Below are positions 3,704 to 59,787 of a stretch of 64,000 nt of DNA, in pieces. Position 1 is the first letter of the stretch, and each line of letters opens with the position of its first letter. Position numbers and translations under genes: made by a program. Below the pieces are notes generated by a model. It had not been told where the DNA came from. It searched no databases and saw nothing but the letters and a program-made list of their open reading frames with translations. The DNA lies in the NCBI GenBank assembly GCA_016218705.1, contig JACRDC010000044.1, positions 1-64,000 on the forward strand, read 5' to 3'. This DNA is from Desulfarculus sp. (lineage in GTDB: Bacteria; Desulfobacterota; Desulfarculia; Desulfarculales; Desulfarculaceae).

Positions 3704-4195
3704 CTAGTCAAGCCGGCCGCCCCGGGCGCGAGCCGCGTCCAGGAGGGCCAGCACGTCTTGCAGTTCCTTCATGGCCGCTTCCACCAGGGGCCTGATGGTG
3801 GCGTCCTCTTCGGCGCTGATGTTGTCGTCATCGGCGGCCCGGCGCACGGCGTCATGCAGGCGGGCGGCCGCGATTCCCACGTCACCGCATTCGCGCTCCG
3901 GGTCCATGGTGGTGAGACTGGCGGGCACGTCGGGCACCGAACGCCGGCCCGGCCACAACAGGTGGCGCTCCAGCACATGGGACCCCGTGACGAAATGGGC
4001 CGCGCGCAGGGTGTCCAGGGGCAGGCCCTTGGTTTGGCCGGCCACCTGGCTGTAGACCGTCTGGTAGTTGAGCCCGCCCAGCTCCAGGCAGACGCGCTCG
4101 ATGGCGCCGGGCTGGCCAATGAGCACGCGGTGCAGGTCCGGGATGATGGCGCCGGCATTGATGAGGGTGGCGCGGTCGTCGGGGATGCCCTTCAT
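3704..4195 (-). CDS. Phage regulatory CII-like protein (CP76-type)
   Basis: This 163-aa protein (HRVLIGQPGAIERVCLELGG, then LNYQTVYSQVAGQTKGLPLD) resembles the phage regulatory CII/CP76 family found next to Cro-like regulators in prophages. The first 60 residues hold a likely helix-turn-helix. The C-terminal third is acidic and Ala-rich and may mediate oligomerisation. It follows the Cro-like gene at 4283 in the same direction and diverges from the repressor at 4745. By position it belongs to the early region of element A. The family call rests on recognition by eye. Confidence 0.6.
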   Translation of the reverse strand: MKGIPDDRATLINAGAIIPDLHRVLIGQPGAIERVCLELGGLNYQTVYSQVAGQTKGLPLDTLRAAHFVTGSHVLERHLLWPGRRSVPDVPASLTTMDPERECGDVGIAAARLHDAVRRAADDDNISAEEDATIRPLVEAAMKELQDVLALLDAARARGGRLD

Positions 4196-4282: not shown

Positions 4283-4621
4283 CTAGAGACTCCCCGCGCC
4301 ATCCGGCGCGCCCACTCGGGGCGCCGCTGCCTCGCCTTCCACCCGCCGGGCCTCCCGTGCCCAGATGTCCGCTTCCTCCACGCCCAGGTAGGTGGCCACG
4401 GCCTGGCGGGCCGGCGCGCTGACGCGCTTGCCGGAGATCACACCCACCAGGTACTCGCGGGGATAGCCCAGGCGGCGGGCCAGGGTGCCCTGGCTTTCGC
4501 GGTCGCCGTGCATCAGGATCAGGGCCGCGCGGACCTTGTGGCCCGGGCTGGCCGGCGAGCTGCGCAGGATTGACCCCAGAACCCGTGAAGGGTTACAGTG
4601 TGTGCCGGTGGTTAAGTCCAT
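4283..4621 (-). CDS. Cro-like helix-turn-helix regulator
   Basis: This 112-aa protein has an HTH core at about residues 29-90 (KVRAALILMHGDRESQGTLA, RRLGYPREYLVGVISGKR, then ATYLGVEEADIW). The pattern, with the trailing LGV...W, is typical of XRE/phage Cro or Ner-like regulators. The ATG at 4621 has GAGGT a few bases upstream. It diverges from the XRE repressor across a region with two palindromic operators, the classic cI/cro layout. It probably represses or competes at those operators. Confidence 0.62.
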   Translation of the reverse strand: MDLTTGTHCNPSRVLGSILRSSPASPGHKVRAALILMHGDRESQGTLARRLGYPREYLVGVISGKRVSAPARQAVATYLGVEEADIWAREARRVEGEAAAPRVGAPDGAGSL

Positions 4622-4689: not shown

Positions 4690-4736
4690 CTCTTTATTTA
4701 GAGCGGCTGTCAAGCCCCAAACCTCTTTTTTTAGAG
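4690..4736 (+). promoter_or_regulatory. Two palindromic operators between cro-like and repressor genes
   Basis: CTCTTTATTTAGAG at 4690-4703 and CTCTTTTTTTAGAG at 4723-4736 share CTCT-N6-AGAG arms. Their starts are 33 bp apart, about three helical turns, so bound dimers would sit on the same DNA face. They lie in the divergent cro-like/repressor region and are probably bound by one or both products. Their position argues that the repressor starts downstream, at TTG 4745. Confidence 0.6.
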
Positions 4737-4744
4737 AATTATGC

Positions 4745-5263
4745 TTGGACGATCTGAAACAGCAAGTTAGCCGCCGACTTAAGTTGGCGATCTCTAATAA
4801 ATACAAGGGCAAATGGACCGTCTTTGCCCGTGACGCCCGAGTTTCGGACGGTACCGCCAAGCGCTGGCTAGACGGGTTATCCCTACCTGGTAGCGAGCAT
4901 CTGACCTCAATATCCTCCGTATTAGGAGTGTCAACTGACTGGCTGCTCAAAGGGAGCGAGCCCTGCGATTCTTTCTCAGAACCCAGTCTCCAAGCTTCCC
5001 CTCCATCTGCACCTATCCAACCCCTGGCACACCATGAGGCATCTTCTGAGGAACGGGAGCTTGAGCTATTCATCACCGAGATGGAAGCCTGGATGCGGCG
5101 CACAGTGATGCGCCGCCCGGAGGCCTTGGAGCAAATCAGCTCAGGCGTTCGCCGGCTGATCAACGAAGTGGAGGGGGTAAGCGAGCCGACCCCTGTTACG
5201 GAAGAGCAGAACAAGGACTCGCCGCGCAAGGTCGCCTGGGGGCCGAACGGGGAAGGAGGCTAG
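4745..5263 (+). CDS. XRE-family (CI-like) repressor of element A
   Basis: From TTG 4745 this gives 172 aa. The N-terminal HTH domain is clear: LKQQVSRRLKLAISNKYKGK, FARDARVSDGTAKRWLDG, then ISSVLGVSTDWLLKGSE. The tail is a Ser/Pro-rich linker and a helical region (about residues 100-155). It lacks the S24 peptidase domain of lambda CI, so induction would not be by RecA-stimulated self-cleavage. An upstream GTG at 4640 gives a longer frame but would place both operators inside the gene, so I prefer 4745. The PAS protein and the TIR receptor gene follow in the same direction, so the repressor probably controls the defence operon as well as lysogeny. Confidence 0.7.
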   Translation: MDDLKQQVSRRLKLAISNKYKGKWTVFARDARVSDGTAKRWLDGLSLPGSEHLTSISSVLGVSTDWLLKGSEPCDSFSEPSLQASPPSAPIQPLAHHEASSEERELELFITEMEAWMRRTVMRRPEALEQISSGVRRLINEVEGVSEPTPVTEEQNKDSPRKVAWGPNGEGG

Positions 5264-5334
5264 CCAAGCCGCCTCTTGGGGGGGAAAGCGAACCCATAAA
5301 CCTGTGGGCTCGTCGGGAAGGACGGTCCCTGCGG

Positions 5335-5661
5335 TTGCCTGAAAGTATCTGCCCCACTTTCATCCATGATCGCGGCGTGATTCTCTGGGCCAGCCAGAAA
5401 GCGGCCGCGACGCTGGGCTATGCCTGCCTGGCGGGCCGCCATGCGCGGTCCCTGGTGGCCGAACGAGACCACCCCCTGCTGGAACGCGCCTTGCAGGCGC
5501 CCGGCGGCGATTCGTTGCGCTATAGCGTACGCACCGCTGGCGGCGGCTGCCTGGAGGTGGAGAGCCGAGGACGGACGATGGCCTGGAAAGGCCGGCTGGT
5601 GCGGCTGGTGGTGGTGAGCTTTCTGGGGGAAGCCAAGGGGTGTGGGGAAGAGGGGGAGTGA
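5335..5661 (+). CDS. Small PAS-domain protein paired with repressor (element A)
   Basis: From TTG 5335 this is 108 aa with one PAS-like fold: FIHDRGVILWASQKAAATLG, then CLAGRHARSLVAERDHPLLE. It aligns with the element B protein at 20918-21349 (IIHEDGIILWNSEA, then LVGRRLLDLV). Similarity extends upstream of this TTG (RREGRSLRLP against RESRSLRLP), so the real N-terminus may be longer. A run of seven G at 5278-5284 follows a TTG in another frame; one extra G would join them. It lies between the XRE repressor and the TIR receptor and could sense a small molecule or partner that relieves repression. Confidence 0.62.
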   Translation: MPESICPTFIHDRGVILWASQKAAATLGYACLAGRHARSLVAERDHPLLERALQAPGGDSLRYSVRTAGGGCLEVESRGRTMAWKGRLVRLVVVSFLGEAKGCGEEGE

Positions 5662-5684: not shown

Positions 5685-8600
5685 ATGGCCGACGAGTTCA
5701 AATACGACGTCTTCATCAGCTACAGCTCCAAGGACAAGAAGGTCGTGCATGAGGTGGCAGAGCGCCTGAGGGCGGATGGCCTGCGCGTGTGGCTGGACGC
5801 CTGGGAGATCAAGGCCGGCGACAGCATCCCGGCCAAGATCGAGGAAGGGCTGGAGCACTCGCGGGTGCTGGTGCTGTGCATGTCGGCGGAGGCCTTTGGC
5901 GCCGACTGGGTGCGGTTGGAGTCGGGCACCTTCCGCTTCCGCGATCCCCTGAATAGGGAGCGCCGCTTCATTCCGCTACGGCTTGACGAGGCGCCCATCA
6001 AGGGCTCTCTGGCGCAGTTTCTCTATATCAGCTGGCTGCCTGGGGATCGCGAGCAGGCATACGGCAAGCTGGTGGAGGCCTGCCGACCGCCGGCCGGGCC
6101 ACAGCCAGGGGAAGCGCTTGACGTCTACCAAGCGGGCGAGGCCCAGGCCGAGCCCTCCCCGCCCGGCAGCGCGGGTCGTGCGAGGAAACTATTAGCGAAA
6201 GGTGGCACAAGGCGCGCTGGCAGCCCCGGCCCCAAAGCGCACCCCGCCTCACCCCCCCTATGCCTTCACACCCTGGCAGGACACTCGAGTTGGGTCAGGG
6301 CCGTATCCTTGACCAGGGATGGCAACCGCGCTGTCTCCGCAAGCAATGACCGAACTCTCAAAGTCTGGGACCTGCAAAAGGCAATATGCCTAACCACCCT
6401 GGAAGGACACTCGGGTGAAGTCTGGGCCGTTTCCTTGACCAGGGATGGCCAGCGGGCGGTCTCGGTCAGCGGTGACAAGACCCTCAGGGTTTGGGACGTG
6501 GAGCGAGGCAAATGCCTTCACACCCTGGAAGGGCACTCGGGTGATGTCAGGGCCGTTTCCTTGACCTTGGATGGCCAGCGGGCGGTCTCGGCAAGCTCTG
6601 ACAAGACCCTCAGGGTTTGGGACGTGGAGCGAGGAAGATGCCTTCACACCCTGGAAGGACACACGCGTTGGGTCTCTGCCGTTTCCTTGACCAGGGATGG
6701 CCAGCGGGCGGTCTCGGTCAGCGGTGACAAGACCCTCAGGGTTTGGGACGTGGAGCAAGGCAAATGCCTTCACACCCTGGAAGGACACTCGGGTGAAGTC
6801 TTAGCCGTTTCCTTGACCTTGGATGGCCAGCGGGCGGTCTCGGCAAGCTTTGACGATACCCTCAGGGTGTGGGACCTGGCGCGAGGCAAATGCCTTCACA
6901 CCCTGGAAGGACACTCGGGTTATGTCAGGGCCGTTTCCTTGACCAGGGATGGCCAGCGGGCGGTCTCGGCAAGCTTTGACCATACCCTCAGGGTTTGGGA
7001 CCTGGAGCGAGGCAAATGCCTTCACACCCTGGAAGGACACTCGGGTGATGTCTATGCCGTTTCCTTGACCCCCGATGGCCAGCGGGCGGTCTCGGCAAGC
7101 CGGGACGGTACCCTCAGGGTTTGGGACCTGGAGCGAGGAAAATGCCTCCACACCCTGGAAGGACACTCAAATTGGGTTAGGGCCGTTTCCTTGACCCCCG
7201 ATGGCCAGCGGGCGGTCTCGGCAAGCTGGGACAATACCCTCAGGGTGTGGGACCTATCAGGAATAGGCAGCGCGGCGGGCGAAGCCGGCGCGCCACCTTC
7301 AACGCCGGCCCAGGAGCAGGTGCAGTACACCAACGCCAAGGTCCTCCTGGTGGGCGAGACCAGCGCGGGTAAGACGGGGCTCTCCATGCGCCTGGCTCGC
7401 AAAAAATGGGAGCCCAGCGACTCCACGGTGGGCGCCTGGGCCACGCAGTGGAAGCTGCCGGTTGCTCCCGGCAACGGCCTGGAGCGCGAGATCTGGCTGT
7501 GGGACTTCGGCGGACAGGCCGACCAGCGCCTGATACACCAGCTCTACATGGACGAGACGGCCCTGGCGGTGCTGGTCTTCGATGGCCAGAAGGATGATAT
7601 CTTCGAAACCCTGGGCATCTGGGACCGCGACCTGCAACGGGCCTCGCACCAGAAGTTCAGCAAGCTGCTGGCGGCCGGGCGCGTGGACGCCGGGGGCCTA
7701 CGCGCCGCCAGCCGGGGGCAGATCGAGGCCTTCGCCCAGGAGCGCGGCTATGCCCGCTTCTTGGAGACCAGCGCCAAGGAGAACATCGGCTGTGATGACC
7801 TGAAACAGGCCATCATCGAGGGCATCCCCTGGGATGAGATTACCAAGCGCTCCTCGCCGCTGTTGTTCAAGCGCCTTAAGGAGGAGATTGTTCGGCTCAA
7901 GGACCAGGGCCGGGTGCTGATGCGCTTCAACGAGCTGCGCGAGACCCTGCAATTGCGCCTGCTGGACGAGGGCCGGCGCTTCAACGACGCCGAGCTCAAG
8001 ACCGTTATCAGCCTGTTGGCCGGCCCGGGCGTGGTGTGGGAGCTGGGCTTTGGCGGTTGGGTGCTCTTGCAGCCGGAGGTGATCAACGCCTATGCCCAGG
8101 CGGTGATCCGCACCATCCGCCAGGACGAGCACGAGCGCGGCTGCCTGCCGGAAGAGCGGGTATTGCGTGGCGAGCTTGATTACCACGCATCCATGGAACG
8201 CCTGCCCGAGGACGATGAGCGTATCGTCCTTCTCGCCATGCACCGAACCTTGGTCGCGCGGGGTTTGTGCCTACGCGAGAACACCAGGCAGGGGGCCATG
8301 CTGGTGTTCCCCAGCTACTACCGGCGCGAACGCCCGGACCTGGGGGATCATCCAGCGGTGCTGGTGAGCTACCGTTTCAGCGGCTTCATGGACGAGATAT
8401 ATGCCACGCTGGTGGTGCGCATGCACTATGCCGGCCCCTTCCAGCAAGACCAGCTTTGGCGCTACGCCGCCGATTTCAAGACCCTCACTGGCAAGCCCAT
8501 GGGAGTCATGCTTTCCCGTAAATTCGAGGGCTCGGGCGAACTGGAGGTGTATTTCGACCCCGCCATCCCGGTGGGCGAGAAGATGATCTTCAGCAAGTAT

Positions 8601-9293
8601 GTCCATGAGCACCTCTTGCGCCATGCCAAGGACGTGGTTCGCCTGCGGCACTATGTGTGCCAACAGTGCGGTACGCCTGTCGGGAACCGCGATGTTGCCA
8701 TGCGCAAGCTGGCCGAGGGCAAGAAGAGCATTATCTGCGCAGACTGCGAGAAGCGCGTGCCGCTGTGGGACGAGATGGAGGAGCTTTTCGCCAGCGAGGA
8801 GACAAGGCGACAGGTGCTCGACCTGGAGAAGCGGTCGCAAGCCGGGCTCGACAGCGAGAGCAAGGAGCGCGTGCTGGTTGGCGAGGTGATCTCCACCGTG
8901 GCCCTGGCCGGGCAGTTATGCCGCGAGTTCAGCGTCAGCGACCATGGAATAGACATGGAGATAGAGTTCAAGACCGACGCTGGCCAGGCCACGGGCCGCA
9001 AGGTGTATTTGCAACTCAAGTCTGGCGATTCCTATGTGCGGGCGCGCAAGAGCGACGGCACCGAGGTCTTTGATATCAAGGATGACCGCCACGCCACCTA
9101 CTGGAGGGAGCAGGCCTTCCCGGTGATGCTGGTCATCCGCAATTCCAAGGGCGAGATACGCTGGATGGAAGTGCGTGACTGGCTGAAGGCCGCCAGCGAC
9201 AACGGCAAGAAGACCGTTAGGCAGATCGTCTTCGAGGGGAAGAGGTTTGACGTGATGGCGGTAAGAAGATGGAGGGACGAGGCGCTGGGGTAG
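5685..9293 (+). CDS. TIR-WD40-GTPase-DUF4365 NLR-like immune receptor
   Basis: This 1202-aa protein has a TIR domain at 1-130 (KYDVFISYSSKDKK start; the WVRLE motif places the likely NADase Glu at 79), a linker to about 190, eight 42-aa WD40 repeats at 193-528 and a Roc/Ras-like GTPase at about 548-730 (P-loop GETSAGKT, G3 motif WDFGGQ). A winged-helix/COR-like region (730-985), a CxxC...CxxC zinc ribbon (about 990-1025) and a C-terminal DUF4365 domain follow. DUF4365 has D1090, E1092, E1094 and Q1110-L-K1112, the pattern of a PD-(D/E)xK nuclease fold. TIR domains in prokaryotic immunity consume NAD; WD40 arrays act as sensors. I infer a sensor-switch-effector defence protein with two potential effectors. 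The gene starts 23 bp after the PAS gene. The architecture is clear, the activity untested. Confidence 0.85.
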   Translation: MADEFKYDVFISYSSKDKKVVHEVAERLRADGLRVWLDAWEIKAGDSIPAKIEEGLEHSRVLVLCMSAEAFGADWVRLESGTFRFRDPLNRERRFIPLRLDEAPIKGSLAQFLYISWLPGDREQAYGKLVEACRPPAGPQPGEALDVYQAGEAQAEPSPPGSAGRARKLLAKGGTRRAGSPGPKAHPASPPLCLHTLAGHSSWVRAVSLTRDGNRAVSASNDRTLKVWDLQKAICLTTLEGHSGEVWAVSLTRDGQRAVSVSGDKTLRVWDVERGKCLHTLEGHSGDVRAVSLTLDGQRAVSASSDKTLRVWDVERGRCLHTLEGHTRWVSAVSLTRDGQRAVSVSGDKTLRVWDVEQGKCLHTLEGHSGEVLAVSLTLDGQRAVSASFDDTLRVWDLARGKCLHTLEGHSGYVRAVSLTRDGQRAVSASFDHTLRVWDLERGKCLHTLEGHSGDVYAVSLTPDGQRAVSASRDGTLRVWDLERGKCLHTLEGHSNWVRAVSLTPDGQRAVSASWDNTLRVWDLSGIGSAAGEAGAPPSTPAQEQVQYTNAKVLLVGETSAGKTGLSMRLARKKWEPSDSTVGAWATQWKLPVAPGNGLEREIWLWDFGGQADQRLIHQLYMDETALAVLVFDGQKDDIFETLGIWDRDLQRASHQKFSKLLAAGRVDAGGLRAASRGQIEAFAQERGYARFLETSAKENIGCDDLKQAIIEGIPWDEITKRSSPLLFKRLKEEIVRLKDQGRVLMRFNELRETLQLRLLDEGRRFNDAELKTVISLLAGPGVVWELGFGGWVLLQPEVINAYAQAVIRTIRQDEHERGCLPEERVLRGELDYHASMERLPEDDERIVLLAMHRTLVARGLCLRENTRQGAMLVFPSYYRRERPDLGDHPAVLVSYRFSGFMDEIYATLVVRMHYAGPFQQDQLWRYAADFKTLTGKPMGVMLSRKFEGSGELEVYFDPAIPVGEKMIFSKYVHEHLLRHAKDVVRLRHYVCQQCGTPVGNRDVAMRKLAEGKKSIICADCEKRVPLWDEMEELFASEETRRQVLDLEKRSQAGLDSESKERVLVGEVISTVALAGQLCREFSVSDHGIDMEIEFKTDAGQATGRKVYLQLKSGDSYVRARKSDGTEVFDIKDDRHATYWREQAFPVMLVIRNSKGEIRWMEVRDWLKAASDNGKKTVRQIVFEGKRFDVMAVRRWRDEALG
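6261..7268 (+). repeat. Eight tandem 126-bp WD40 repeats with hypervariable codons
   Basis: The array encodes eight consecutive 42-aa WD40 units, each starting CLHTLEGH or close to it and ending near LRVWD. Units 2-8 are nearly identical at DNA level (for example ACCCTCAGGGTTTGGGAC recurs). Differences cluster at unit positions 9-11, 13, 19, 29 and 31: after GH the residues are SSW, SGE, SGD, TRW, SGE, SGY, SGD and SNW, and before the conserved Asp N, G, S, G, F, F, R and W. This suggests homogenisation of the backbone with diversification of exposed positions. Confidence 0.9.
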
Positions 9294-9351: not shown

Positions 9352-11955
9352 ATGACTATACTCCAAGAAATATTGAATTGGTCCAAAGGTTTGCCTTCAT
9401 GGGAGAGCGATGCTATAGCGCGCTTGCTGGCAAAGCAAACTCTTTCTCCAGGCGACCTGAAAGATCTGTACGCCTTGCTCAAAACAGCACACGGGATTCC
9501 TGATGCTGAGGGCCGAACGGCCCGACCCCTCGCTGACGATCATATTCCTGCTTTGCGCGAGGAGGCTGTACATGTTGAACTCCTTGCTATTAAGAACATG
9601 AGGAATGTGAATGCTATTGCCGAAAGCAAACGGTTGCCCATAGGAAACACCGGGCTGACAGTCATCTATGGTGATAATGGCTCTGGGAAATCAGGCTATT
9701 CTAGAGTGCTCAAACGCGCGTGCCGTGCACGTGACCAAGGAGAGCCTATTCATCCTAATGCCAATCAATCTATAGACCAAGACGGAATGGCTAAGGCCGT
9801 TTTTGAAATCGCGGTCAATGGCGTAGAAGAGGACGTGCACTGGATAAATGGCAAGACGCCACCGCCCGAACTGTCATCGCTCGCCATCTTTGACTCGCGA
9901 TGCGCGCGCGCATACCTCGACGATGAGGATGACTTCTCTTATATACCTTACGGTCTGGATGTATTGGAGGGATTGGCTAGCGTTTGTATACAGTTGAAGT
10001 CAATGATTGAAATCGAGCGTTCACAGTATAAGGTTGATCCTTTGGCGTTTAAGTCTCTCCACGGAGACACTAAAGTCGGTGAACTAATTGCTAACCTGTC
10101 TCCGGAGACGACAACGGCCCAAATTGAAGCACTGGCGACCATGACCACAGAAGAGCTGGCCCAACATATCGAACTTGGCAATAGTCTGAAGGAGAATAAC
10201 CCTAAGGAAAAGGCCAACCATTTACGCTTACAGGCCCGCCGTATCTCCAACATTGCTCATAACGCCGCTGATAAGGCAGCGCTGATTGACAAAGGTGTCG
10301 TTGAAACCCTTCGTGGGTTGGCCGACAGCTACCAGATAGCGAAAGCAGCGGCTGATCTCTCTGCTAATCAATTTAGGGAAGATGCCAGCATGCTGCCGGG
10401 CACCGGTGGCGAAGCGTGGCGGGCCTTATTCGAAGCCGCCCGTAGGTTCGCACTTCAAGCGCATCCGGATAAGTCGTTTCCCAAATTGGGTGTTGAAGCC
10501 CTCTGTCCTCTATGCCAACAGCCCTTGGCCGAAGGGGCGGATCGCCTGTTACGCTTCGAGGCGTTCATCCAAAACGATGCCCAGAAAAACGCACACGCAT
10601 GCCGGACGGCCTTGGACGCGAAGTACGATCCGTTTGCTGCCCACGTCTTGGCCCTCAATCTAGACGACGTTACTTATGGCGAGATCGAGGCATTGGACCC
10701 TCAACTTGCTATTGATACGCGCGCTTTCGAGCAGGCAATAGCCGCCCGCCATAGCGCCATCAAAACGGCGGTGGAGTCAAATCAGTGGGGCGACGCTGAA
10801 ACTGACTTGATCAATCCGGCGCTCCGCCTACAGACACTAGTTGCCTCGCTTAATGCTCAAGCAGATACCTTGGAGGCAGCCTCAGACGAACAGGCACGCG
10901 CCGCCCTTCAGCGGCAGTTTGACGAGTTGGATGCGCGGGTCAAGTTGAACCAAATTAAGGAAAGCGTCATCACCGCAGTGTCGCGGCTAAGCCATCAAGC
11001 GAAGCTCACTAATTGCCTGGCGGCTGTGAAGACTAATGCCATTTCTCTCAAGTCTGCGGAGTTAGCTGAGAAGGTCGTATCCCAAGAGCTGGCTGCGGCC
11101 CTCAACCGCGAGTTCAAGGCACTGGGTGCAGGTGACCTTAGCGTTTCCTTGCAGAGCCGTTCGGAAAGAGGCAGGGCTTTGCATAAGCTGAGACTAGAGT
11201 TCCCACAACGCCGGAGCCCTGGTGATATTCTCAGCGAAGGTGAACAACGGGCCGTTGCCATCGGGTCCTTCTTGGCCGAAGTTGGCTTGGGCGGCAGTCG
11301 GGGCGGAATCATCTTCGATGACCCCGTGTCTTCACTAGACCATCTTCGACGTGGGCTTGTGGCAAAGCGTTTAGCGGCCGAATCGGCGCATCGCCAAGTC
11401 ATCGTTTTCACACACGACATATATTTCCTCTGCCTTCTAATGGAGCAATCAAAGATTGCCAGCGCACCAATAACAACCCAGAGTCTGGTTAGGTGTGCCG
11501 AGGGGTGCGGTATTCCCGACCCAGAGCTACCCTTTGAGGCGAAAAACGTTACAGGACGGATCGGTGCGCTAAAGGCCCAACAACAGTTCATCGCAAAGCT
11601 TCATAGGGGCCATGAGGAGCAGGAGCATCGCCGACAGACCGTCGATGCCTACTCCCGGTTGCGCATGACCTGGGAAAGAGCCGTTGAAGAGATCCTGCTC
11701 CGGGACGTCATCCAGCGTTTTAGGAAAAGTGTAGAAACTAACCGCTTGGCAGGAGTTATCGTCGAGGACAGCGACTATGCCGCAGTGAATGCGGGGATGA
11801 CGAAGTGCTCTAACTTCGCGCATGATACGGCGCTCATGGGCGGCGTTGCCGTGCCAGAGCCAGATGAGTTACTGGCTGACATAATGGCTTTGGAAGCGTG
11901 GCGATCTCAACTTGAAGCCAGGAGCAAAGAGGCTCTTAAGAGGCGCAAGAAATAG
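9352..11955 (+). CDS. Rad50-like ATPase, RloC/PrrC-type anticodon nuclease candidate
   Basis: This 867-aa protein has Walker A GDNGSGKS at 107-114, a coiled-coil middle with a zinc-hook CPLC at 385-388, the ABC signature LSEGEQRA at about 627, Walker B IIFDDPVSSLDH at about 653 and an H-loop TFTHD-like motif (VFTHD). The C-terminal region has R771-x3-E775 and H824 (NFAHD). R-x3-E plus a downstream His is the catalytic triad of PrrC and RloC tRNA anticodon nucleases, and RloC also has a zinc hook. It lies directly upstream of a type I restriction operon, where such nucleases occur. Base composition is lower in GC than the neighbours, suggesting separate acquisition. A different SMC-like defence ATPase is possible; the nuclease call is inference. 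Confidence 0.68.
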   Translation: MTILQEILNWSKGLPSWESDAIARLLAKQTLSPGDLKDLYALLKTAHGIPDAEGRTARPLADDHIPALREEAVHVELLAIKNMRNVNAIAESKRLPIGNTGLTVIYGDNGSGKSGYSRVLKRACRARDQGEPIHPNANQSIDQDGMAKAVFEIAVNGVEEDVHWINGKTPPPELSSLAIFDSRCARAYLDDEDDFSYIPYGLDVLEGLASVCIQLKSMIEIERSQYKVDPLAFKSLHGDTKVGELIANLSPETTTAQIEALATMTTEELAQHIELGNSLKENNPKEKANHLRLQARRISNIAHNAADKAALIDKGVVETLRGLADSYQIAKAAADLSANQFREDASMLPGTGGEAWRALFEAARRFALQAHPDKSFPKLGVEALCPLCQQPLAEGADRLLRFEAFIQNDAQKNAHACRTALDAKYDPFAAHVLALNLDDVTYGEIEALDPQLAIDTRAFEQAIAARHSAIKTAVESNQWGDAETDLINPALRLQTLVASLNAQADTLEAASDEQARAALQRQFDELDARVKLNQIKESVITAVSRLSHQAKLTNCLAAVKTNAISLKSAELAEKVVSQELAAALNREFKALGAGDLSVSLQSRSERGRALHKLRLEFPQRRSPGDILSEGEQRAVAIGSFLAEVGLGGSRGGIIFDDPVSSLDHLRRGLVAKRLAAESAHRQVIVFTHDIYFLCLLMEQSKIASAPITTQSLVRCAEGCGIPDPELPFEAKNVTGRIGALKAQQQFIAKLHRGHEEQEHRRQTVDAYSRLRMTWERAVEEILLRDVIQRFRKSVETNRLAGVIVEDSDYAAVNAGMTKCSNFAHDTALMGGVAVPEPDELLADIMALEAWRSQLEARSKEALKRRKK

Positions 11956-12017
11956 CTGTATTGCATTAACAAGTTATTAACTGTCTCCACCCAAGATTTT
12001 GAGGTAACTGAACGCCC

Positions 12018-13482
12018 ATGTTTGAACAGGCCTTCAAGAACATCGACGACATCCTTTGGAAAGAGGATGGTTGCGGCACTGAGCTGGACTACACCGAGCA
12101 GACCTCCTGGCTCTTGTTCCTCAAGTACCTGGATGACCTGGAGCAGGACCGGGCCATGGAGGCCCAGTTGGAGGGGCGGCAGTATTCCTTCATCCTCGAC
12201 AAGCCTTTCAGGTGGGAGAACTGGGCCGCGCCCAAGGGTGCCGACGGCCAACTTGACCATAACAAGGCGATGACCGGCGATGACCGGCGATGACCTGATC
12301 GACTTCGTCAGCCTCGATCTTTTCCCCTACCTGCAAAAGTTCAAGCAAAAGGCCAGCGGCCCCAACACCATCGAATACAAGATCGGCGAGATTTTCGGGG
12401 AGATCAAGAACAAGATACAGAGCGGCTACAGTCTGCGCGAGATCATAGACCACGTGGACGAGTTGCAGTTCCGTTCGCAAGCCAACAAGCACGAGCTATC
12501 CCACCTGTACGAAGCCAAGATCAAGAACATGGGCAACGCCGGGCGCAACGGCGGCGAGTACTACACCCCGCGCCCGCTGATCCGCGCCATGGTGCGGGTG
12601 GTCAAGCCCCAGATCGGCGAGCGCATCTATGACGGCGCCTGCGGGTCGGCCGGCTTTCTCTGCGAGTCCTTCGTGTACCTTAAGGAGAAGGGCAAGCTCA
12701 CCACCGCCGACCTGACCAAGCTGCAAACCGGCACCTTCTACGGCAAGGAGAAGAAGTCCCTGGCCTACGTGCTGGCTATCATGAACATGATCCTGCACGG
12801 CATCGACGCGCCCAACATCATGCACACCAACACTCTGACCGAGAACTTGGCCGACATCCAGGAGAAGGACCGCTACGAGGTGATCCTGGCCAACCCGCCC
12901 TTTGGCGGCAAGGAGCGCAAGGAGGTTCAGCAGAACTTCCCCATCCGCACCAGCGAGACCGCCTTTCTTTTCTTGCAGCACTTCATCAAGATGCTAAAGG
13001 CCGGCGGCCGGGCGGGGGTGGTCATCAAGAACACCTTCCTTTCCAACACCGACAACGCCGCCGTGGGCCTGCGCAAGCTGCTGCTGGAGAGCTGCAACCT
13101 GCACACCGTGCTGGACTGCCCTGGCGGCACCTTCCAGGGGGCGGGCGTCAAGACCGTGGTGCTGTTCTTTGAGAAGGGCGCGCCCACACGCCAGGTCTGG
13201 TACTACCAGTTGGACCCTGGCCGCAACCTGGGCAAGACCAACCCCCTTGACGACGATGACTTGGCCGAGTTCGTGGAGCTGCAAAAGAGCAAGGCCGACT
13301 CGCCCAAGAGCTGGACCCTGGACGTGGCCGACCTTGACCAGGCCAACTATGATCTCTCGGTGAAGAATCCCAACAATGGCGGGGAGGTGAAGCACCGCAG
13401 CCCCCAGCAGATTTTGGAAGAGATCGCTGCCTTGGATGCCGAAAGCGCTAAGGTGCTGGAGAAGATCAGGGAGCTGTTGTGA
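12018..13482 (+). pseudogene. hsdM: Type I restriction methyltransferase HsdM, split by a 10-bp repeat
   Basis: The N-terminal part (12018-12293, FKNIDDILWKEDGCGTELDY) and the rest (12280-13482) together form one HsdM of about 490 aa. The second part holds the target-recognition bundle (GNAGRNGGEYYTPRPLIRAM), SAM motif I (YDGACGSAGFL) and the catalytic NPPFGG. Three copies of a 10-bp repeat at 12266-12295 shift the frame; with two copies the reading would run MTGDDLIDF without a break. As read, the first part stops at 12293 while ATG 12280 opens the second, so reinitiation could still give a two-piece enzyme. HsdM methylates adenine in the HsdS target and is needed for restriction. Confidence 0.85.
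12266..12295 (+). repeat. Three perfect copies of GGCGATGACC in hsdM
   Basis: GGCGATGACC is repeated three times without a mismatch. Two copies, or any copy number equal to 2 modulo 3, restore the hsdM frame. Slipped-strand change in such a repeat would switch the gene on or off. Confidence 0.9.
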
Positions 13483-14690
13483 AAGACGAGTGGCAAACCA
13501 AGGCGTTGGGTAACGTTTGCGAATTTGTTCGCGGCCCGTTCGGAGGCAGCCTCAAGAAGTCGGTATTCGTTGAGGATGGCTTTGCGGTTTACGAGCAGCA
13601 ACACGCTATCTACAACCAATTCGAAGCAATTAGATACTTCATTGATGAAACAAAATTCAGAGAGATGCAACGCTTTGAACTCCGCCCAAACGATCTAATT
13701 ATGAGCTGTTCTGGTACGATGGGCAAAGTAGCCATCGTCCCCGGTAAAATTAGGCAGGGGATCATCAATCAAGCATTACTTAAACTGACTCCTTCTGATA
13801 AGATTTCGCCACAGTTTTTGAAATACTGGATGGATAGCACCTCCTTTCAGGACAGTTTGAAGGACCAGTCTGGAGGCGTGGCCATTCAGAATGTGGCCTC
13901 AGTTAGCATCCTTAAAGAAATTAAGATATCGCTTCCTCCTCTCCCTGAACAGCAGCGCATCGTCGGCACCCTCGACGAAGCCTTCGCCGGCATCGCCACC
14001 GCCAAGGCCAACGCCGAAAATAATCTGCAAAATGCGCGGGCGCTACCAGATAACTGCCTGCAATTCATTATAAATAAATACAGGGAAAGCTGGACAGTAA
14101 AGCGTCTTAACCAAATTGCCGATAGCATTTCAACTGGGCCATTTGGAACCATGCTCCATAAATCAGATTACGTTACCGACGGTATCCCATTAGTTAACCC
14201 AATGAATATTGTGGACTCCAGCATTGTCCCTTCTTCAAGAATGATGGTCAGCGAAGAAACTAGAGACAACTTGAGTGCTTACATATTAAAAGCTGGTGAT
14301 GTTGTAATCGGGCGAAGAGGTGAATTGGGACGGTGCGCTTTAGTTACTGACCGTGAAGCGGGTTGGCTTTGTGGTACTGGTTCATTTTTTGTGCGCCTAT
14401 CTGCCGTTATGGATGGTGACTTTTTTGTATCATTGTTCGGATCGGAACAGGTTAAAGCTCGGCTTAATTCTGATGCAGTTGGCGCAACTATGAGCAGCCT
14501 AAATCATGGCATACTTAACAATCTATTACTGCCAGTTCCACCCATCAAGGTCCAAAGACAAATCATAGCAAATATTCATGCCCTTCGTTCAGAAACCCAG
14601 TCCCTCGAATCCCTTTACCAGCAAAAGCTCGCAGCCTTGGACGAACTAAAAAAATCGCTTCTGCACCAGGCCTTCAACGGCCAACTTTAA
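13479..14690 (+). CDS. hsdS: Type I restriction specificity subunit HsdS
   Basis: This 403-aa protein starts at GTG 13479, overlapping the end of hsdM. It has two target-recognition domains (about 1-150 and 205-345), each followed by a conserved spacer helix: LPEQQRIVGTLDEAFAGIAT at about 158 and VQRQIIANIHALRSETQSLE at about 355, ending LKKSLLHQAFNGQL. Each domain reads half of a bipartite DNA target. The recognition domains are AT-richer than hsdM and hsdR, as expected from frequent exchange. The target cannot be predicted by eye. Confidence 0.93.
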   Translation: MKDEWQTKALGNVCEFVRGPFGGSLKKSVFVEDGFAVYEQQHAIYNQFEAIRYFIDETKFREMQRFELRPNDLIMSCSGTMGKVAIVPGKIRQGIINQALLKLTPSDKISPQFLKYWMDSTSFQDSLKDQSGGVAIQNVASVSILKEIKISLPPLPEQQRIVGTLDEAFAGIATAKANAENNLQNARALPDNCLQFIINKYRESWTVKRLNQIADSISTGPFGTMLHKSDYVTDGIPLVNPMNIVDSSIVPSSRMMVSEETRDNLSAYILKAGDVVIGRRGELGRCALVTDREAGWLCGTGSFFVRLSAVMDGDFFVSLFGSEQVKARLNSDAVGATMSSLNHGILNNLLLPVPPIKVQRQIIANIHALRSETQSLESLYQQKLAALDELKKSLLHQAFNGQL

Positions 14691-14699
14691 GGCAGCGCC

Positions 14700-17158: not shown

Positions 17159-17201
17159 CCCCCATCTGGATGCCCCCTCGCCCAGCCCGGAGTTGCTCCG
17201 G
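17159..17201 (+). promoter_or_regulatory. S site 3 plus start-proximal hairpin in integrase 1 leader
   Basis: Positions 17159-17188 match the site at 3618-3647 (28 of 30). They run directly into CCGGAG-TTG-CTCCGG (17187-17201), a perfect hairpin one base before the TTG start. The GGAG in the left arm is the best ribosome binding site, so folding would hide it. This suggests translational control of the integrase. Confidence 0.55.
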
Positions 17202-17202
17202 T

Positions 17203-18498
17203 TTGGGCGATTTGCTTTCGCCACAACTAGCCGCGCAACTGGCCGCATGGGGCGTTTCCATGCGGGGTAAGATCGTTTCGCGCCAGCGCTGCCCCGCCTG
17301 CGGCCAGGCCGGCCACTTCGATATTAGGGACTTCGGCCGGGGCCGCCGGGCCTTGCTGTGCCAGTGCGGCGGGTTCATCGCCAACCGCCTGGAGGTGGTG
17401 GTCAAATGGCAAGGCGCGGTCTACCGCATTACCCATGACCAGTCTGGCCAGCGCCTGACTGATTATGTCCACGCCGAGCGCGCCCAGGGCCTGATAAACA
17501 ACCAGATCGAGCGCGGTGGGTTCTACCCCACCCTGTGGACCAGCGCCAAACACAACCGGCTGCTATGGGAAAACTACCTGCGGGATTACCTGCGGGCCGA
17601 AGAAGATAGGCTGTTGCCCGGCCGCGCCGCCACCCTGGCCAAGAAGAAAGCCTGGGCGCGGCATCTGGTGTGGTTCAACGGAAGGAACCTCCGCGAGCTA
17701 CGAACCGCCGACCTGGAGCAATACGCCAGCCTGCCCTGCCTGCGTCTGGCCCTGGCGCCCAAGAGCCTGGCCGACGTCATGGTGGAGCTGCGCCACATCC
17801 TGGAGCGCGCCGAGGCCCGGGATGATATCGAGCGCGCGCCCCAGGTGCCCCCGGTGCAGGTGCCCCGCCGGGCCGTAAAGGTCATGACCGCCGACCAGCA
17901 GGTCCGCGTCCTGGAGAGCATCCCCACCCCGCACCGCCCCATTTTCATGTTCCTCATGGAGTACGGCTGCCGGGTCAGCGAGGCCTGCGCGCTGTGTTGG
18001 GACATGGTGGACCGGGAGCGGGAGGTGGTGGTCCTGGCCCGCACTTTCTCTCGCCGCGTTTTGGCGGAGGCCACCAAGACCAGGCGTGATAACACCCTGC
18101 CTATCGTGGGTTGGTTTCAGACCCACCTGGAGGCCATGCCCCCGGGGCTGCATCAGACGCCGGTCTTCCAAAACCCGGAAGCTGACCCTCGCCGCAACCC
18201 CGCCAGGTTCTACTCGCCCGACATCCTGAACAGCATTTGGCGCGATGCCCTAGAAGAGGCCGAACTGGAGCCTATCCCCCTAAAAAACGGCACCAGGCAC
18301 TCTCGCGGCAAGCAACTTCGGGATGCCGGCTGGGACCCCCACCTGATCGCCCGGCTCCTGGGCCACGCCTCCACCCACCACACCATGCGCTACTACGTGG
18401 AAGACGACGCAGAGACCCTGCGGGACAAGTTGACAGCCGGCAAAGTTGTCAACCTGTTGTCAACCCCAAAAACCCCTAAAAACGACTCAGGCGGTTAG
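17203..18498 (+). CDS. int: Tyrosine integrase 1 with N-terminal zinc ribbon (element A)
   Basis: From TTG 17203 this gives 431 aa. The N-terminus has CPACG...CQCG (about residues 27-53), a zinc-ribbon-like module unusual for phage integrases. A SAM-like core-binding domain follows at about 115-215 (FNGRNLRELRTADLEQYAS). The catalytic domain has Arg in YGCRVSEACAL (about 263), RHSRGKQLRDAG (about 367), GHASTHHTMRY (about 388) and the Tyr in MRYYVEDDA (about 396). The start is chosen by comparison with integrase 2, which also begins TTG-GGC-GA. It runs toward the tRNA fragment 33 bp beyond its stop, which is probably its attachment core. It is the sister of integrase 2. Confidence 0.92.
   Translation: MGDLLSPQLAAQLAAWGVSMRGKIVSRQRCPACGQAGHFDIRDFGRGRRALLCQCGGFIANRLEVVVKWQGAVYRITHDQSGQRLTDYVHAERAQGLINNQIERGGFYPTLWTSAKHNRLLWENYLRDYLRAEEDRLLPGRAATLAKKKAWARHLVWFNGRNLRELRTADLEQYASLPCLRLALAPKSLADVMVELRHILERAEARDDIERAPQVPPVQVPRRAVKVMTADQQVRVLESIPTPHRPIFMFLMEYGCRVSEACALCWDMVDREREVVVLARTFSRRVLAEATKTRRDNTLPIVGWFQTHLEAMPPGLHQTPVFQNPEADPRRNPARFYSPDILNSIWRDALEEAELEPIPLKNGTRHSRGKQLRDAGWDPHLIARLLGHASTHHTMRYYVEDDAETLRDKLTAGKVVNLLSTPKTPKNDSGG
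18445..18465 (+). repeat. Paired 10-bp direct repeats, possible integrase arm sites (left)
   Basis: GTTGTCAACC occurs at 18445-18454 and 18456-18465, 11 bp apart, inside the last codons of integrase 1. A pair with the same geometry and a related sequence lies on the other side of the tRNA fragment at 18643-18663. Confidence 0.45.
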
Positions 18499-18520
18499 CC
18501 CTCTTCGAGCTAACCGCCTG
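18488..18520 (+). terminator. Strong hairpin at the end of integrase 1
   Basis: CAGGCGGTTAG and CTAACCGCCTG form a perfect 11-bp stem around an 11-nt loop, overlapping the integrase stop codon. The following ATATCATTCTT is only weakly T-rich. It probably separates integrase 1 transcription from the attachment region. Confidence 0.55.
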
Positions 18521-18530
18521 ATATCATTCT

Positions 18531-18580
18531 TGGTAGGCCGGAAGGGATTTGAACCCTTGACTTCCACCGTGTGAGGATGG
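18531..18580 (-). tRNA. tRNA-Val(CAC) 3' fragment, probable attachment core
   Basis: Read on the minus strand, this is the 3' part of a tRNA: anticodon stem CCATC/GGTGG with loop CTCACAC (anticodon CAC), a T arm AAGGG-TTCAAAT-CCCTT, acceptor strand CCGGCCT, A and CCA. A matching 5' acceptor AGGCCGG is absent upstream and the D arm is not recognisable, so the gene is not functional here. It lies between two convergent integrases, as expected for a displaced tRNA end at an attachment site. The intact gene is not in the window. Confidence 0.75.
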
Positions 18581-18642
18581 CATTCTACATCTCGATCTAA
18601 ACGTTGTCTAATATCAGCTAGTTGCAAGGGCGATTTTTACCA

Positions 18643-18663
18643 ATGTCCACCTGATGTCCACCT
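18643..18663 (+). repeat. Paired 10-bp direct repeats, possible integrase arm sites (right)
   Basis: ATGTCCACCT occurs at 18643-18652 and 18654-18663, 11 bp apart, next to the stop of integrase 2. The shared core with the left pair is TGTC[A/C]ACC, in the same orientation. Arm-type binding by the integrase N-terminus is a plausible role. Confidence 0.45.
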
Positions 18664-19948
18664 AGCCCCCAGACCCGGCCCCCTCAATCTTCCTGGGACT
18701 AAGCGTCCTGACCTTGCTATTAAGCAGCTCACGCACGAGCCCCGTGCCGGCCCTGGCGTACTTGCGTGTATGGGCCAATGAGGTGTGCCCCAGAATTCGG
18801 CTGGCAGCCTCTATGCCCCACTGATGAACATTGATGGCCTGCATTCCCAGGGAGTGCCTGGTGGCGTTCTTCAATGGAATTTGCGGCAAGCCAGCTGCTC
18901 CCACTGCTATGGAAAACAGCTTGCGCAATTGGTCCTCCAGGTAAAACCGCTCGCGATTATGAGCTTCGGGATTGCGAAATACCGGTGTGACCCCCAGGCC
19001 TGGGGTTATCGATTGCAGGTAGGTGGCAAATTCCTCGCAGATGGGCAGGACGTTGGGCCGGGCCTTGGGTCGCTCCAGGAGCTTGCGGCGACTGAAGGTA
19101 CGCGCGAGGTAAAAGATGCCGTTGTCCCGGTCGACCTTGTCCCAGCATAGGGCCGTGGCTTCGTTCACACGGCAGCCGTAGGTAAACATGAATGAAAAGA
19201 TCGACCGGTGCTCCTCGGGGAGCCGCTCCAGGATTCTTTGCTGTTGCTCCTGGTTGTACCAGGCGATTTCTTTTTCAGGCACCCTCACCGCGGGGAACTC
19301 AGGCACCCTGGCGATATCCTGGCGCCGGAGAGCCCGCTTAAGGATAAAGCGCAGCTCTGTGAGGACATCGGACCTGGTCTTGGGCGCCAGGCCCTTTTTC
19401 TTGAGGTGGAGGTCAAAATCTTCTATCTGGCCGGTGCGCAGCTCGCGGATGTTTTGACCGTTAAACCAGCTCAGGTGGCGTCCTATGGAGACCTTCTTGG
19501 CCAGGGAGGCCTCGCGGTCCGGCTGCAGGCGCTCCCTCTCGTGGTCCAGGTAGGCCCTGTAGTAATTTTGCCAGAGGAGGCCGTTAACGTCGGAAGGCGT
19601 CCACAGTTCAGGATAGAAACTGCCCTCCATGATCTCTTCGCTGATCTGGGCCAGCGCCAGACAGGCCTCATCGTAACTGCTGAAGGCCTGCCCTGATTTG
19701 TCATGGGTGACGGTGTGAAGGCGGTTCTGCCACTTAACGCGGATTTCGATGGCAGCGTCAGCCCACCGTCCACACTCGCAGCTTAGGACCTCCACCGGGC
19801 GCTTGCCCTTGAGCCTGATGGTCTTGGGCTCATAGCGTCCCCGCTGCCCGCACTGGGGGCAAACTTGACGACAGCGGATGCTACCACGCATGGGAACCCT
19901 CATGGCGGCCAGCTGCGCTGCGATTTGCGGGGAAAGAGCTTCGCCCAA
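18662..19948 (-). CDS. int: Tyrosine integrase 2 with N-terminal zinc ribbon (element B)
   Basis: This 428-aa protein starts at TTG 19948. It shares the plan of integrase 1: LSPQIAAQLAAMRVPMRG, zinc ribbon CPQCG...CECG at about 24-52, core-binding domain with LSWFNGQNIRELRTGQIEDF, catalytic Arg in YGCRVNEATALCW (about 259), RHSLGMQA (about 365), GHTSLAHTRKY with the Tyr at about 397. It heads element B, reads toward the tRNA fragment and ends 82 bp from it. It probably catalyses integration and excision of the prophage. Element-specific leader site S4 lies just upstream of the start. Confidence 0.93.
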   Translation of the reverse strand: MGEALSPQIAAQLAAMRVPMRGSIRCRQVCPQCGQRGRYEPKTIRLKGKRPVEVLSCECGRWADAAIEIRVKWQNRLHTVTHDKSGQAFSSYDEACLALAQISEEIMEGSFYPELWTPSDVNGLLWQNYYRAYLDHERERLQPDREASLAKKVSIGRHLSWFNGQNIRELRTGQIEDFDLHLKKKGLAPKTRSDVLTELRFILKRALRRQDIARVPEFPAVRVPEKEIAWYNQEQQQRILERLPEEHRSIFSFMFTYGCRVNEATALCWDKVDRDNGIFYLARTFSRRKLLERPKARPNVLPICEEFATYLQSITPGLGVTPVFRNPEAHNRERFYLEDQLRKLFSIAVGAAGLPQIPLKNATRHSLGMQAINVHQWGIEAASRILGHTSLAHTRKYARAGTGLVRELLNSKVRTLSPRKIEGAGSGG

Positions 19949-20026: not shown

Positions 20027-20512
20027 TCAAGAGGCCAGGGAAGCGATCATCCCATTACCCGCTGGTATCTCGAAGGGAGGGGCGGGCTTTTGCCGGGGCT
20101 CAATGCCTTGGAAGGATTCTATTACGTGCTCGGTGGGCATCCGCTTCACGGCTGCGTAGATGAGGCGCAAAAGGCGGTCATGAGCCTTGCCGACGGTTTG
20201 GGCGCCGCTCTCCCAGCGGTAGATGGTGGCCCGGTCCACGCCCAGCCAGTGGGCCAGCTCTTGGCCGTTCAGGCGAAGATTTTTGCGCAGAAAGCGAATT
20301 TCGGGACCAGTCAGGAGAGATGGCTTGGCTACCAGCAACTCGCCAATACGCTGATGCAAGGCCGGCAAGGCGGGCAGGCCGACCATGCTCTCGCCGCAAG
20401 CGCAGTGGCAGACCTGGGCGTCAGTCAGGAAGACGTTGTCCAGGCCCGCCCCAGTGTATTGGTAGGTCTCCCGCCTGCAATCCATCAGTTCGCCACAAGT
20501 TGGACAGCGCAT
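20027..20512 (-). CDS. YgiT/MqsA-like zinc-finger HTH antitoxin
   Basis: From ATG 20512 this gives 161 aa. The N-terminal zinc finger has MRCPTCGELMD and CHCACG (two CxxC-type pairs). The C-terminal XRE-type HTH (LRLNGQELAHWLGVDRATIY, RWESGAQTVGK) is typical of MqsA-like antitoxins that neutralise a toxin and repress their own promoter. It lies 11 bp downstream of the DUF4258 toxin gene. The pair sits between integrase 2 and the PAS/XRE genes and probably stabilises element B. Confidence 0.8.
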   Translation of the reverse strand: MRCPTCGELMDCRRETYQYTGAGLDNVFLTDAQVCHCACGESMVGLPALPALHQRIGELLVAKPSLLTGPEIRFLRKNLRLNGQELAHWLGVDRATIYRWESGAQTVGKAHDRLLRLIYAAVKRMPTEHVIESFQGIEPRQKPAPPFEIPAGNGMIASLAS

Positions 20513-20523
20513 GTCAGGACTCC

Positions 20524-20805: not shown

Positions 20806-20834
20806 TCTGCAGCTCCCGAATGCCCAGTGAATAA

Positions 20835-20863
20835 AATATGATGCATCGTCATGCAATTGTCAA
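20835..20863 (-). promoter_or_regulatory. Promoter of the toxin-antitoxin operon
   Basis: Leftward TTGACA (20858-20863), a 17-bp spacer and CATATT (20835-20840). The flanks hold repeated ATGCA and GATGCA words, probably antitoxin operators. Confidence 0.55.
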
Positions 20864-20917: not shown

Positions 20918-21349
20918 CTATGCTCCGGGGGTTTTCGCCAGCCGTAGTTTTACAAAACGCATTGAGCGGCCCTTGAACTTGATGTCGGAACCCTGCCCGA
21001 TCACCCATAACTTTTTCTCGCCGGCCGAGCGCACCTGGACATGCCTGGGTACGGAGGTCGTGCTTTCGAGGGCCTCCTGCATAGTCTTACGAGATTCTGA
21101 GGACACCAGATCGAGCAGGCGCCGTCCCACCAACTGGCGGAATCCGCCTTGTTGGCATACCGCCTCGCTATTCCAGAGAATTATCCCGTCCTCGTGAATT
21201 ATCGCGGGCAAGGTATAGGGCAATCGTAAGGACCGGCTTTCCCTTACAGCACACAGGCTGATGAATTCGCCTCCCTCGGCGGGTCTTTCTCCTACTCGCC
21301 TACCGCGGCCGGCCCCGATTTCTTCTCTCTGCGATTCCCGCTGCCCCAT
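20918..21349 (-). CDS. Small PAS-domain protein paired with repressor (element B)
   Basis: This 143-aa frame has a PAS-like core (LPAIIHEDGIILWNSEAV, then FRQLVGRRLLDLVSSESRK) and a C-terminal strand region (KLWVIGQGSDIKFKGRSMR). It is related to the element A protein at 5335-5661 and stands in the same place, directly downstream of an XRE regulator. Its start at 21349 overlaps the end of that gene by 58 nt; an internal start is possible because the first 40 residues are low complexity. A role in modulating the repressor is inference from conserved pairing. Confidence 0.6.
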   Translation of the reverse strand: MGQRESQREEIGAGRGRRVGERPAEGGEFISLCAVRESRSLRLPYTLPAIIHEDGIILWNSEAVCQQGGFRQLVGRRLLDLVSSESRKTMQEALESTTSVPRHVQVRSAGEKKLWVIGQGSDIKFKGRSMRFVKLRLAKTPGA

Positions 21350-21747
21350 ACAGCGCGATGGTTGCTCTCGATGGAATCCTTCATGACCTGCGCCAGCGGG
21401 CCATCGCTTCGGAGCACAAACAGGGCCTTGTCCAGCAGCGCTCGCTCTGATTTGCTTGCGCCCGGGCCGGCCCGTGAAGGTTTGGCCCCGCCAGCTTCTC
21501 CGGCGGTCTCGCCTGTCAGGACGTAATTAAAATCTTCCCTACGCATATGGGTAGCAATGGAACTCAGAGTCTGGAGGCTAGGCCCGGCCTTGCCGGGTCT
21601 CGTGGGGTCCCTGCCCATCATGGTGCGGTAGGTCATGAGGGCCAGGCCCAGGGATTGAGCGAACTTGGGGTCCTTGAGCCCGGACCTGGCCTGCAACTCC
21701 TGCATCCTGGCCCGAAATTTTTCCAGTTCATCGGGTATGTTAGCCAT
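21292..21747 (-). CDS. XRE-like repressor of element B
   Basis: This 151-aa protein has an N-terminal HTH region (FRARMQELQARSGLKDPKFA, then QSLGLALMTYRTMMGRD, SLQTLSSIATHMRREDF), followed by a Gly/Ala linker and a helical C-terminus (KSERALLDKALFVLRSDGPL). There is no peptidase domain. It diverges from the early operon at 21828 across a 80-bp region with a strong promoter, so it is probably the lysogeny repressor. It overlaps the PAS gene. Confidence 0.65.
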   Translation of the reverse strand: MANIPDELEKFRARMQELQARSGLKDPKFAQSLGLALMTYRTMMGRDPTRPGKAGPSLQTLSSIATHMRREDFNYVLTGETAGEAGGAKPSRAGPGASKSERALLDKALFVLRSDGPLAQVMKDSIESNHRAVWGSGNRREKKSGPAAVGE

Positions 21748-21773: not shown

Positions 21774-21801
21774 TTGACATACCTACGCATTTGCATATAC
21801 A
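21774..21801 (+). promoter_or_regulatory. Early promoter of element B
   Basis: TTGACA (21774-21779), a 16-bp spacer and TATACA (21796-21801). It drives the gene at 21828, whose ribosome binding site GAGGAGG is strong, and faces the repressor gene. Confidence 0.65.
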
Positions 21802-21827
21802 CAGGCCCAACACTTGAGGAGGTTCAG

Positions 21828-22004
21828 ATGTCCGAAACCATTAAGCCCTTCAACCTCAATCTGAGCCAGGCCGAGCGCCTGGAGCTGGAGACCTACCGCA
21901 AGCGCCTTGGGTTTCGCTTCCTGAGCGACCTGATCCGCACCAAAATGCTGGAGCTGGCCCGCCAGCCGGACAACCTCCCGCCGCTACCGGGACAAGAGGC
22001 CTGA
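21828..22004 (+). CDS. Small ribbon-helix-helix-like early regulator
   Basis: From ATG 21828 this gives 58 aa (MSETIKPFNLNLSQAERLEL, then RKRLGFRFLSDLIRTKMLEL). A short strand followed by two helices fits a ribbon-helix-helix DNA-binding protein. The start is set by GAGGAGG just upstream; the frame also opens at 21774 but without a signal. It is the first gene of the rightward early operon, the position of Cro in other phages. Confidence 0.6.
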   Translation: MSETIKPFNLNLSQAERLELETYRKRLGFRFLSDLIRTKMLELARQPDNLPPLPGQEA

Positions 22005-59752: not shown

Positions 59753-59787
59753 CGGGGCCTCGTTTCCGCTACATATGGCTTGTAGTT

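Follow-up and report, generated by a model that had tools for sequence, protein, structure and literature searches.

Two mobile elements that meet in a Desulfarculus sp. contig each carry a gene for a small stand-alone PAS protein directly behind a gene in the repressor position. The window analyzed is the whole stretch of 64,000 nucleotides from that contig. Because the PAS gene is common to both elements and the repressor gene is not, comparison of the two suggests that the PAS protein is a swappable sensor of prophage switches. Under the reading that we favor, to which we give a probability of about 0.5, the separately encoded PAS partner is made in step with a repressor that has no peptidase domain and supplies its signal input.

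PAS proteins and their partner genes

The two open reading frames described in the earlier note (5335-5661 on the plus strand and 20918-21349 on the minus strand) are present, each directly after an upstream open reading frame on the same strand. Their products, PAS1 and PAS2, align over their full length with a local score of 200, whereas none of 500 shuffles exceeded 62, and the alignment confirms that the motifs RSLRLP and IH[DE]xG[VI]ILW are common to both, as had been noticed before. A profile of this PAS family matched the PAS domains of large sensor proteins in other genomes of the phylum (E 1e-6 to 1e-8), and these matches were restricted to the core, positions 40-130. Searched singly against Pfam, PAS1 and PAS2 stayed below threshold for both PAS_9 (16.8 bits, cut-off 27) and PAS (13.6, cut-off 22.6); despite this, the profile matches of about 1e-8 uphold their earlier designation as PAS proteins. 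A low-confidence structure model (pLDDT 50.7) has strands and helices in the order E-E-H-H-E-E-E, and a Foldseek search with this model ranked the PAS domains of FixL and DosP first (E 1.5e-4, TM about 0.3). PAS1 and PAS2 are true homologues and, by profile, PAS proteins.

Cofactor signatures were sought in an alignment of three PAS copies, the third being from a second Desulfarculus genome. Read by eye, this alignment does not contain the LOV cysteine motif, and no histidine at the haem-ligand position of FixL (F-alpha) is common to the three copies. The sole histidine found in all three sits in the first strand (IH), and the three copies have no flavin or haem signature in common. Pfam searches of PAS1 and PAS2 gave no helix-turn-helix (HTH) domain and no protease match, and neither protein contains HEXXH. 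Nor did Pfam and PHROG searches reveal a LuxR HTH or an AHL-binding domain in them.

The partner of PAS1, XRE1, matches the phage repressor families phrog_8 (8e-8) and phrog_3037 (6e-6) and has weak similarity to the P22 c2 and 434 repressors; its Pfam score for HTH_3 is under the cut-off. These matches indicate that XRE1 has a predicted HTH_XRE DNA-binding domain. XRE2, the partner of PAS2, gave one marginal HTH-type match only (phrog_147, E=0.029), its low-confidence model is all-helical with no structural match, and its profile retrieved XRE2 alone from 345 genomes. By position, size, and gene order it is probably an HTH repressor. The CI-like character that the earlier note gave to both partners is thus borne out for XRE1 and weakly supported for XRE2, and its description of the two as twins has to be given up, as alignment detected no homology between them (137 of 500 shuffles reached at least the same score). 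The absence of a peptidase domain was correctly seen: Pfam found none, including the S24 autoproteolytic type, in either partner.

Two 14-bp copies of CTCTTTNTTTAGAG, 33 bp apart, lie between the divergent Cro-like gene and XRE1 (Table 1). With up to one mismatch, this pattern occurs at just these two places in the 4.2-Mb genome, which fits a role of the copies as putative operators of XRE1. The first element therefore has what is expected around a repressor gene, a divergent early/Cro gene together with symmetrical operator-like repeats. The same search in the second element gave imperfect repeats only, which are absent from the copy in the second Desulfarculus genome, and no clear operator. 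In both elements, the repressor-position and PAS genes face the integrase gene and point away from the divergent early genes.

Table 1 Features of the two elements (E1, E2) in the window
Feature	Position	Strand	Remarks
Possible CII-like regulator, E1	3704..4195	-	phrog_101, E=0.0074
Divergent Cro-like HTH protein, E1	4283..4621	-	phrog_1468, 1e-4; HTH_31 below cut-off
Operator-like palindrome CTCTTTATTTAGAG, copy 1	4690..4703	+	Pattern search
Operator-like palindrome CTCTTTTTTTAGAG, copy 2	4723..4736	+	Pattern search
XRE1, CI-like HTH protein, about 172 aa	4745..5263	+	Putative start TTG 4745 or a codon 5' of it
Overlap of XRE1 3' end and PAS block	5239..5263	+	Opens with GGGGCC, closes at XRE1 stop TAG
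PAS1 coding block by homology	5239..5661	+	N-terminal block 5239-5334 and PAS core 5335-5661; -1 frame relative to XRE1
TIR-WD40-GTPase-like protein (cargo)	5685..9293	+	Starts 24 bp after PAS1, same strand
E1 tyrosine integrase	17170..18498	+	Domain and PHROG matches, pairwise comparison with E2 integrase
E2 tyrosine integrase	18662..19948	-	47% identical to E1 integrase
PAS2 ORF	20918..21349	-	From ATG 21349; homology with PAS1 from 21316; -1 frame relative to XRE2
Island across XRE2/PAS2 junction, 215 nt	21215..21429	-	97% identical to the other Desulfarculus copy
XRE2, repressor-position helix-rich protein, 151 aa	21292..21747	-	HTH probable
Divergent small RHH-like gene upstream of XRE2	21774..22004	+	By eye; no Pfam or PHROG match

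Layout of the elements and distribution of the pair

Element 1 (E1) extends from window position 1, where the contig end cuts it, to its integrase gene. Its visible part is made up of repressor, Cro/CII-like, ParAB, restriction, and integrase genes. The minus strand encodes ParA/ParB and the possible CII- and Cro-like regulators, and the plus strand encodes, in order, XRE1, PAS1, the TIR-WD40-GTPase-like protein, an AAA_13 protein, a type I restriction system, and the integrase. Element 2 (E2) runs rightwards from its own integrase gene and is a tailed-phage prophage by its terminase, neck, and tail genes. The two integrase genes are convergent at the border between the elements (17170-19948) and each product has an N-terminal zinc-ribbon-like part. 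A shared attachment site is possible from this arrangement; the window contains no tRNA gene.

The 1202-aa TIR-WD40-GTPase-like protein carries eight WD40 repeats and a Ras-like GTPase stretch (VGETSAGKTGL) besides its TIR domain, with one more domain at the C-terminus, and looks like a defense protein. Beyond it (9352-17099), the AAA_13 protein, of a PrrC/RloC-like family, adjoins a complete type I restriction set of hsdM, hsdS, and hsdR. In E2, the region 3' of PAS2 (20027-20856) encodes a DUF4258 protein and an MqsA-like HTH protein, a toxin-antitoxin-like arrangement, and further into the prophage a single protein (25119-26351) joins a ParB-like N-terminal domain to a PAPS-reductase-like domain, with a copy at 594-1952 of locus L024 in the second Desulfarculus genome. 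Outside the prophage, two small protein genes (MLQKSFGIALATLVAAGALLS...; 54659-55261 and 62892-63485), very similar and a local duplication, flank an efflux-pump-like cluster (56648-62414).

The search for further adjacent XRE-PAS pairs that the earlier note proposed gave one, in the Desulfarculus metagenome-assembled genome (MAG) contig JACQYR010000266.1 (L015/L024), and none in phages, plasmids, or viral contigs. This copy is orthologous to that of E2 (XRE 91%, PAS 80% identity), yet its integrase differs (26% identity over part), as does the flank. An excisionase-like gene and then the integrase gene follow the pair on its 3' side, and the DUF4258/MqsA-like pair is missing from the matching place. 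Three copies are thus known, two of them orthologous, all from one genus, two genomes, and two independent assemblies. In each, the PAS gene lies directly behind and overlaps a repressor-position gene.

Four more genomes of the genus, the remainder of the class (63 genomes searched), some 400 further genomes of the phylum, phages, and plasmids yielded no member of the PAS family. Genome contigs were searched by pattern only, so distant relatives there may escape. Protein patterns gave no PAS relatives in viral contigs, where a degenerate IHD/E-x-G-V/I-I-x-W pattern had four matches, all in frames of 20-25 codons, and a tblastn search of phages with generic PAS sequences gave nothing. Within the Desulfarculus genome itself, none of the other places among 18 with HTH_3 adjoins a short PAS frame of the PAS_9 list, which argues that the XRE-PAS pairing is not background. 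Only the PAS gene is common to all three copies: two of them also have the same type of XRE, and a different two have integrases of one family. A PAS gene that stays constant while XRE type and integrase vary is the pattern that an exchangeable module would give.

Overlap and translation of the PAS gene

In all three copies, the PAS frame overlaps the 3' end of the partner gene on the same strand in the -1 frame. Sequencing error that split one gene was ruled out, since three copies from two assemblies have this same frame relation. Homology at the DNA level between E1 and E2 opens with GGGGCC (5239 and 21316), eight codons before the partner stop, and the TAG stops of the two partner genes align.

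The start of PAS1 at 5335, as given in the earlier note, is doubtful. That TTG encodes the second L of RSLRLP, so a start there would truncate a conserved N-terminal block that begins about 96 nt upstream (5239), within XRE1. This block, up to RSLRLP, is 61% identical between E1 and E2 (20/33), compared with 31% (28/89) in the PAS core. Differences at codon positions 1 and 2 number 20 of 68 in the block versus 92 of 176 in the core (p=0.0016), and of the 34 codons compared in the block, 18 differ at position 3 and 8 at position 2 (p=0.024). Being spared at positions 1 and 2 and changed most at position 3, the block behaves as translated protein, and its greater conservation than the core at positions 1 and 2 is the expectation for a contact surface. 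From the last upstream stop (about 5068) to TTG 5335, the PAS1 frame contains no ATG, GTG, or TTG. In E2 and its orthologue, an ATG (21349) precedes the homology block; its Shine-Dalgarno (SD) sequence is poor (-3.3 kcal/mol).

Between E2 and its orthologue, the changes within the overlap fall mostly at XRE third positions and alter the PAS frame, which indicates that the PAS frame is weakly constrained there. The island across the junction has 6 differences, compared with 62/295 in the remaining PAS gene and 35/318 in the 5' part of XRE; its flanks are 79-89% identical, and the identity of the island extends to third codon positions. This may reflect either constraint or recent exchange. The PAS frame could be translated by coupling from ATG 21349 (E2), from an Ile codon or the late TTG, or after a -1 slip at GGGG.

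A ribosomal -1 slip near the shared GGGGCC would yield an XRE-PAS fusion, that is, a one-component sensor-repressor, beside a short repressor ending at the TAG. The run G GGG CCG at the start of the XRE1 overlap is a possible site, and GGGG would allow perfect P-site re-pairing at the homology boundary in all three copies, each with the -1 relation. The missing ATG, GTG, or TTG upstream of the conserved block of PAS1 also speaks for a slip, as does conservation of the E1/E2 overlap in the PAS frame and not in the XRE frame, and FseA is a precedent for frameshift-fused regulators of mobile elements. However, the shared site does not contain the classical X XXY YYZ heptamer, the RNA folds are no more stable than shuffles, E2 and its orthologue have the in-frame ATG, and GGGG is frequent in G+C-rich DNA. 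Moreover, the three copies inherit their frame relation from one ancestor and so are not independent evidence. We consider such a fusion unlikely. Its extension is a shade more doubtful: the slip would yield the fusion in fixed proportion, giving sensing and non-sensing forms of the repressor, and the PAS end with the junction would be a cassette moving between unrelated repressors.

The PAS protein could instead be a separate product that starts late or at a non-AUG codon and acts independently of the DNA-binding protein encoded upstream (AUC 21262 or AUA 5296; TTG 21223 or 5335). A strong SD-like GAGGGAGG stands 6 nt before AUC 21262 (-12.2 kcal/mol), another SD sequence precedes TTG 5335 (-10.7 kcal/mol), and the TTG falls in the same alignment column in E1 and E2. 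Against this, the translated-type pattern (18 vs 8 of 34, p=0.024) is that of the block upstream of these starts, and the persistent pairing of the genes opposes independence. We regard this explanation as improbable.

Proposed signal input and comparison with known switches

The preferred reading, that of a separate PAS partner acting as signal input, can be set out in steps. The lysogeny-side operon of each element would open with a DNA-binding repressor that has no peptidase or dimerization domain. The small PAS protein would come next, its frame overlapping the end of the repressor gene, and this overlap would couple its translation to that of the repressor. It would then bind the helical tail of the repressor through its basic conserved N-terminal block, and its core, on ligand binding or contact with a redox partner, would strengthen or relieve repression. 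The PAS protein would thereby stand in for the C-terminal domain of CI, as a separate part that can be exchanged. We infer the contact between PAS and XRE proteins, the ligand, and the effect on the switch. The reading is consistent with a PAS module that is constant while the repressor differs (E1 and E2), and with a pair that is constant while the integrase differs (E2 and L024). Counting against it are the small number of copies, an HTH in XRE2 that neither sequence nor model confirms, PAS proteins that carry no cofactor signature, the weak constraint on the PAS frame in the overlap of E2 and its orthologue, and the position of the E1 pair at the head of a defense/restriction operon, 24 bp before TIR and restriction cargo, which the pair might regulate. 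The proposal of the earlier note that the PAS protein gives a missing signal input thus agrees with the pairing pattern, while the occurrence in one genus only and the less than firm status of XRE2 as a repressor weaken it.

The pair might control cargo and not lysogeny, like the repressor modules of CBASS islands; the cargo would be the TIR-WD40 and type I restriction genes of E1 and the toxin-antitoxin-like DUF4258/HTH pair of E2. In favor, only 24 bp separate the end of PAS1 from the TIR gene, which shares its strand, and the CapH/CapP repressor-protease pair governs CBASS. This explanation is nevertheless quite improbable, since the other Desulfarculus copy has no such cargo, its pair being followed by the excisionase-like gene and integrase, and since the divergent Cro- and CII-like genes match a lysogeny switch. 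Least probable is that the PAS gene is a passenger or decaying gene with no part in the switch, as its narrow distribution, the lack of a canonical start in PAS1, and a fast-diverging core (31% identity between E1 and E2, 80% between E2 and its orthologue) might suggest: all three copies, which come from two independent assemblies, are intact, and differences between E2 and its orthologue outside the overlap lie mostly at third codon positions, which means that the PAS frame is under purifying selection.

The earlier statement that no switch of this kind had been described is too strong, as phage and integrative and conjugative element (ICE) switches with a separately encoded signal partner, and VqmA, are on record. 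The Aeromonas linear-plasmid phages Apop and ARM81ld carry xre-luxR operons (Silpe et al. 2023, PMC10432266), in which a phage XRE protein is likewise accompanied by a ligand-binding partner that adds a signal to the lysis decision; there, however, the partner is an AHL-binding LuxR transcription factor, and the pair activates a smORF antirepressor in addition to an autoproteolytic cI. VqmA of phage VP882 is a phage-encoded PAS quorum sensor that ties the host signal DPO to lysis or lysogeny (PMC8284805, PMC12802170), but its PAS domain and LuxR-type HTH are in one chain, and it acts via the antirepressor Qtip. ImmR/ImmA of ICEBs1 and TnSmu1 (PMC10233336) is a two-gene system in which a CI-like repressor without a proteolytic domain of its own shares an operon with its derepressing part, in that case a HEXXH metalloprotease and not a PAS protein. 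In Mesorhizobium ICEs, FseA (Msi172-Msi171) is a frameshift fusion of adjacent regulator ORFs (PMC5882170); it resembles the XRE-PAS pair as neighboring ORFs of a mobile-element regulator, and differs in its protein families and in that fusion is reported for FseA and merely possible for XRE-PAS. Small stand-alone proteins with a PAS fold are also encoded by uncultured Caudovirales (BFVD, e.g., A0A6J5RGP7 and A0A6J5NY05), with weak fold similarity only.

Switches with a separate signal partner and a phage PAS sensor are therefore already known, and what appears new here is the combination of an XRE protein with a stand-alone PAS protein, a prophage pair for which no description was found in the literature searched. 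As the pair was found in two genomes of a single genus, the reach of the finding is limited. If the reading is true, a stand-alone PAS protein would let the prophage switch of these strict anaerobes respond to a small molecule or to the redox state, independently of RecA, and this sensor would be swapped between repressors as a cassette. It would also answer how peptidase-less CI repressors without a known protease or antirepressor get their induction signal.
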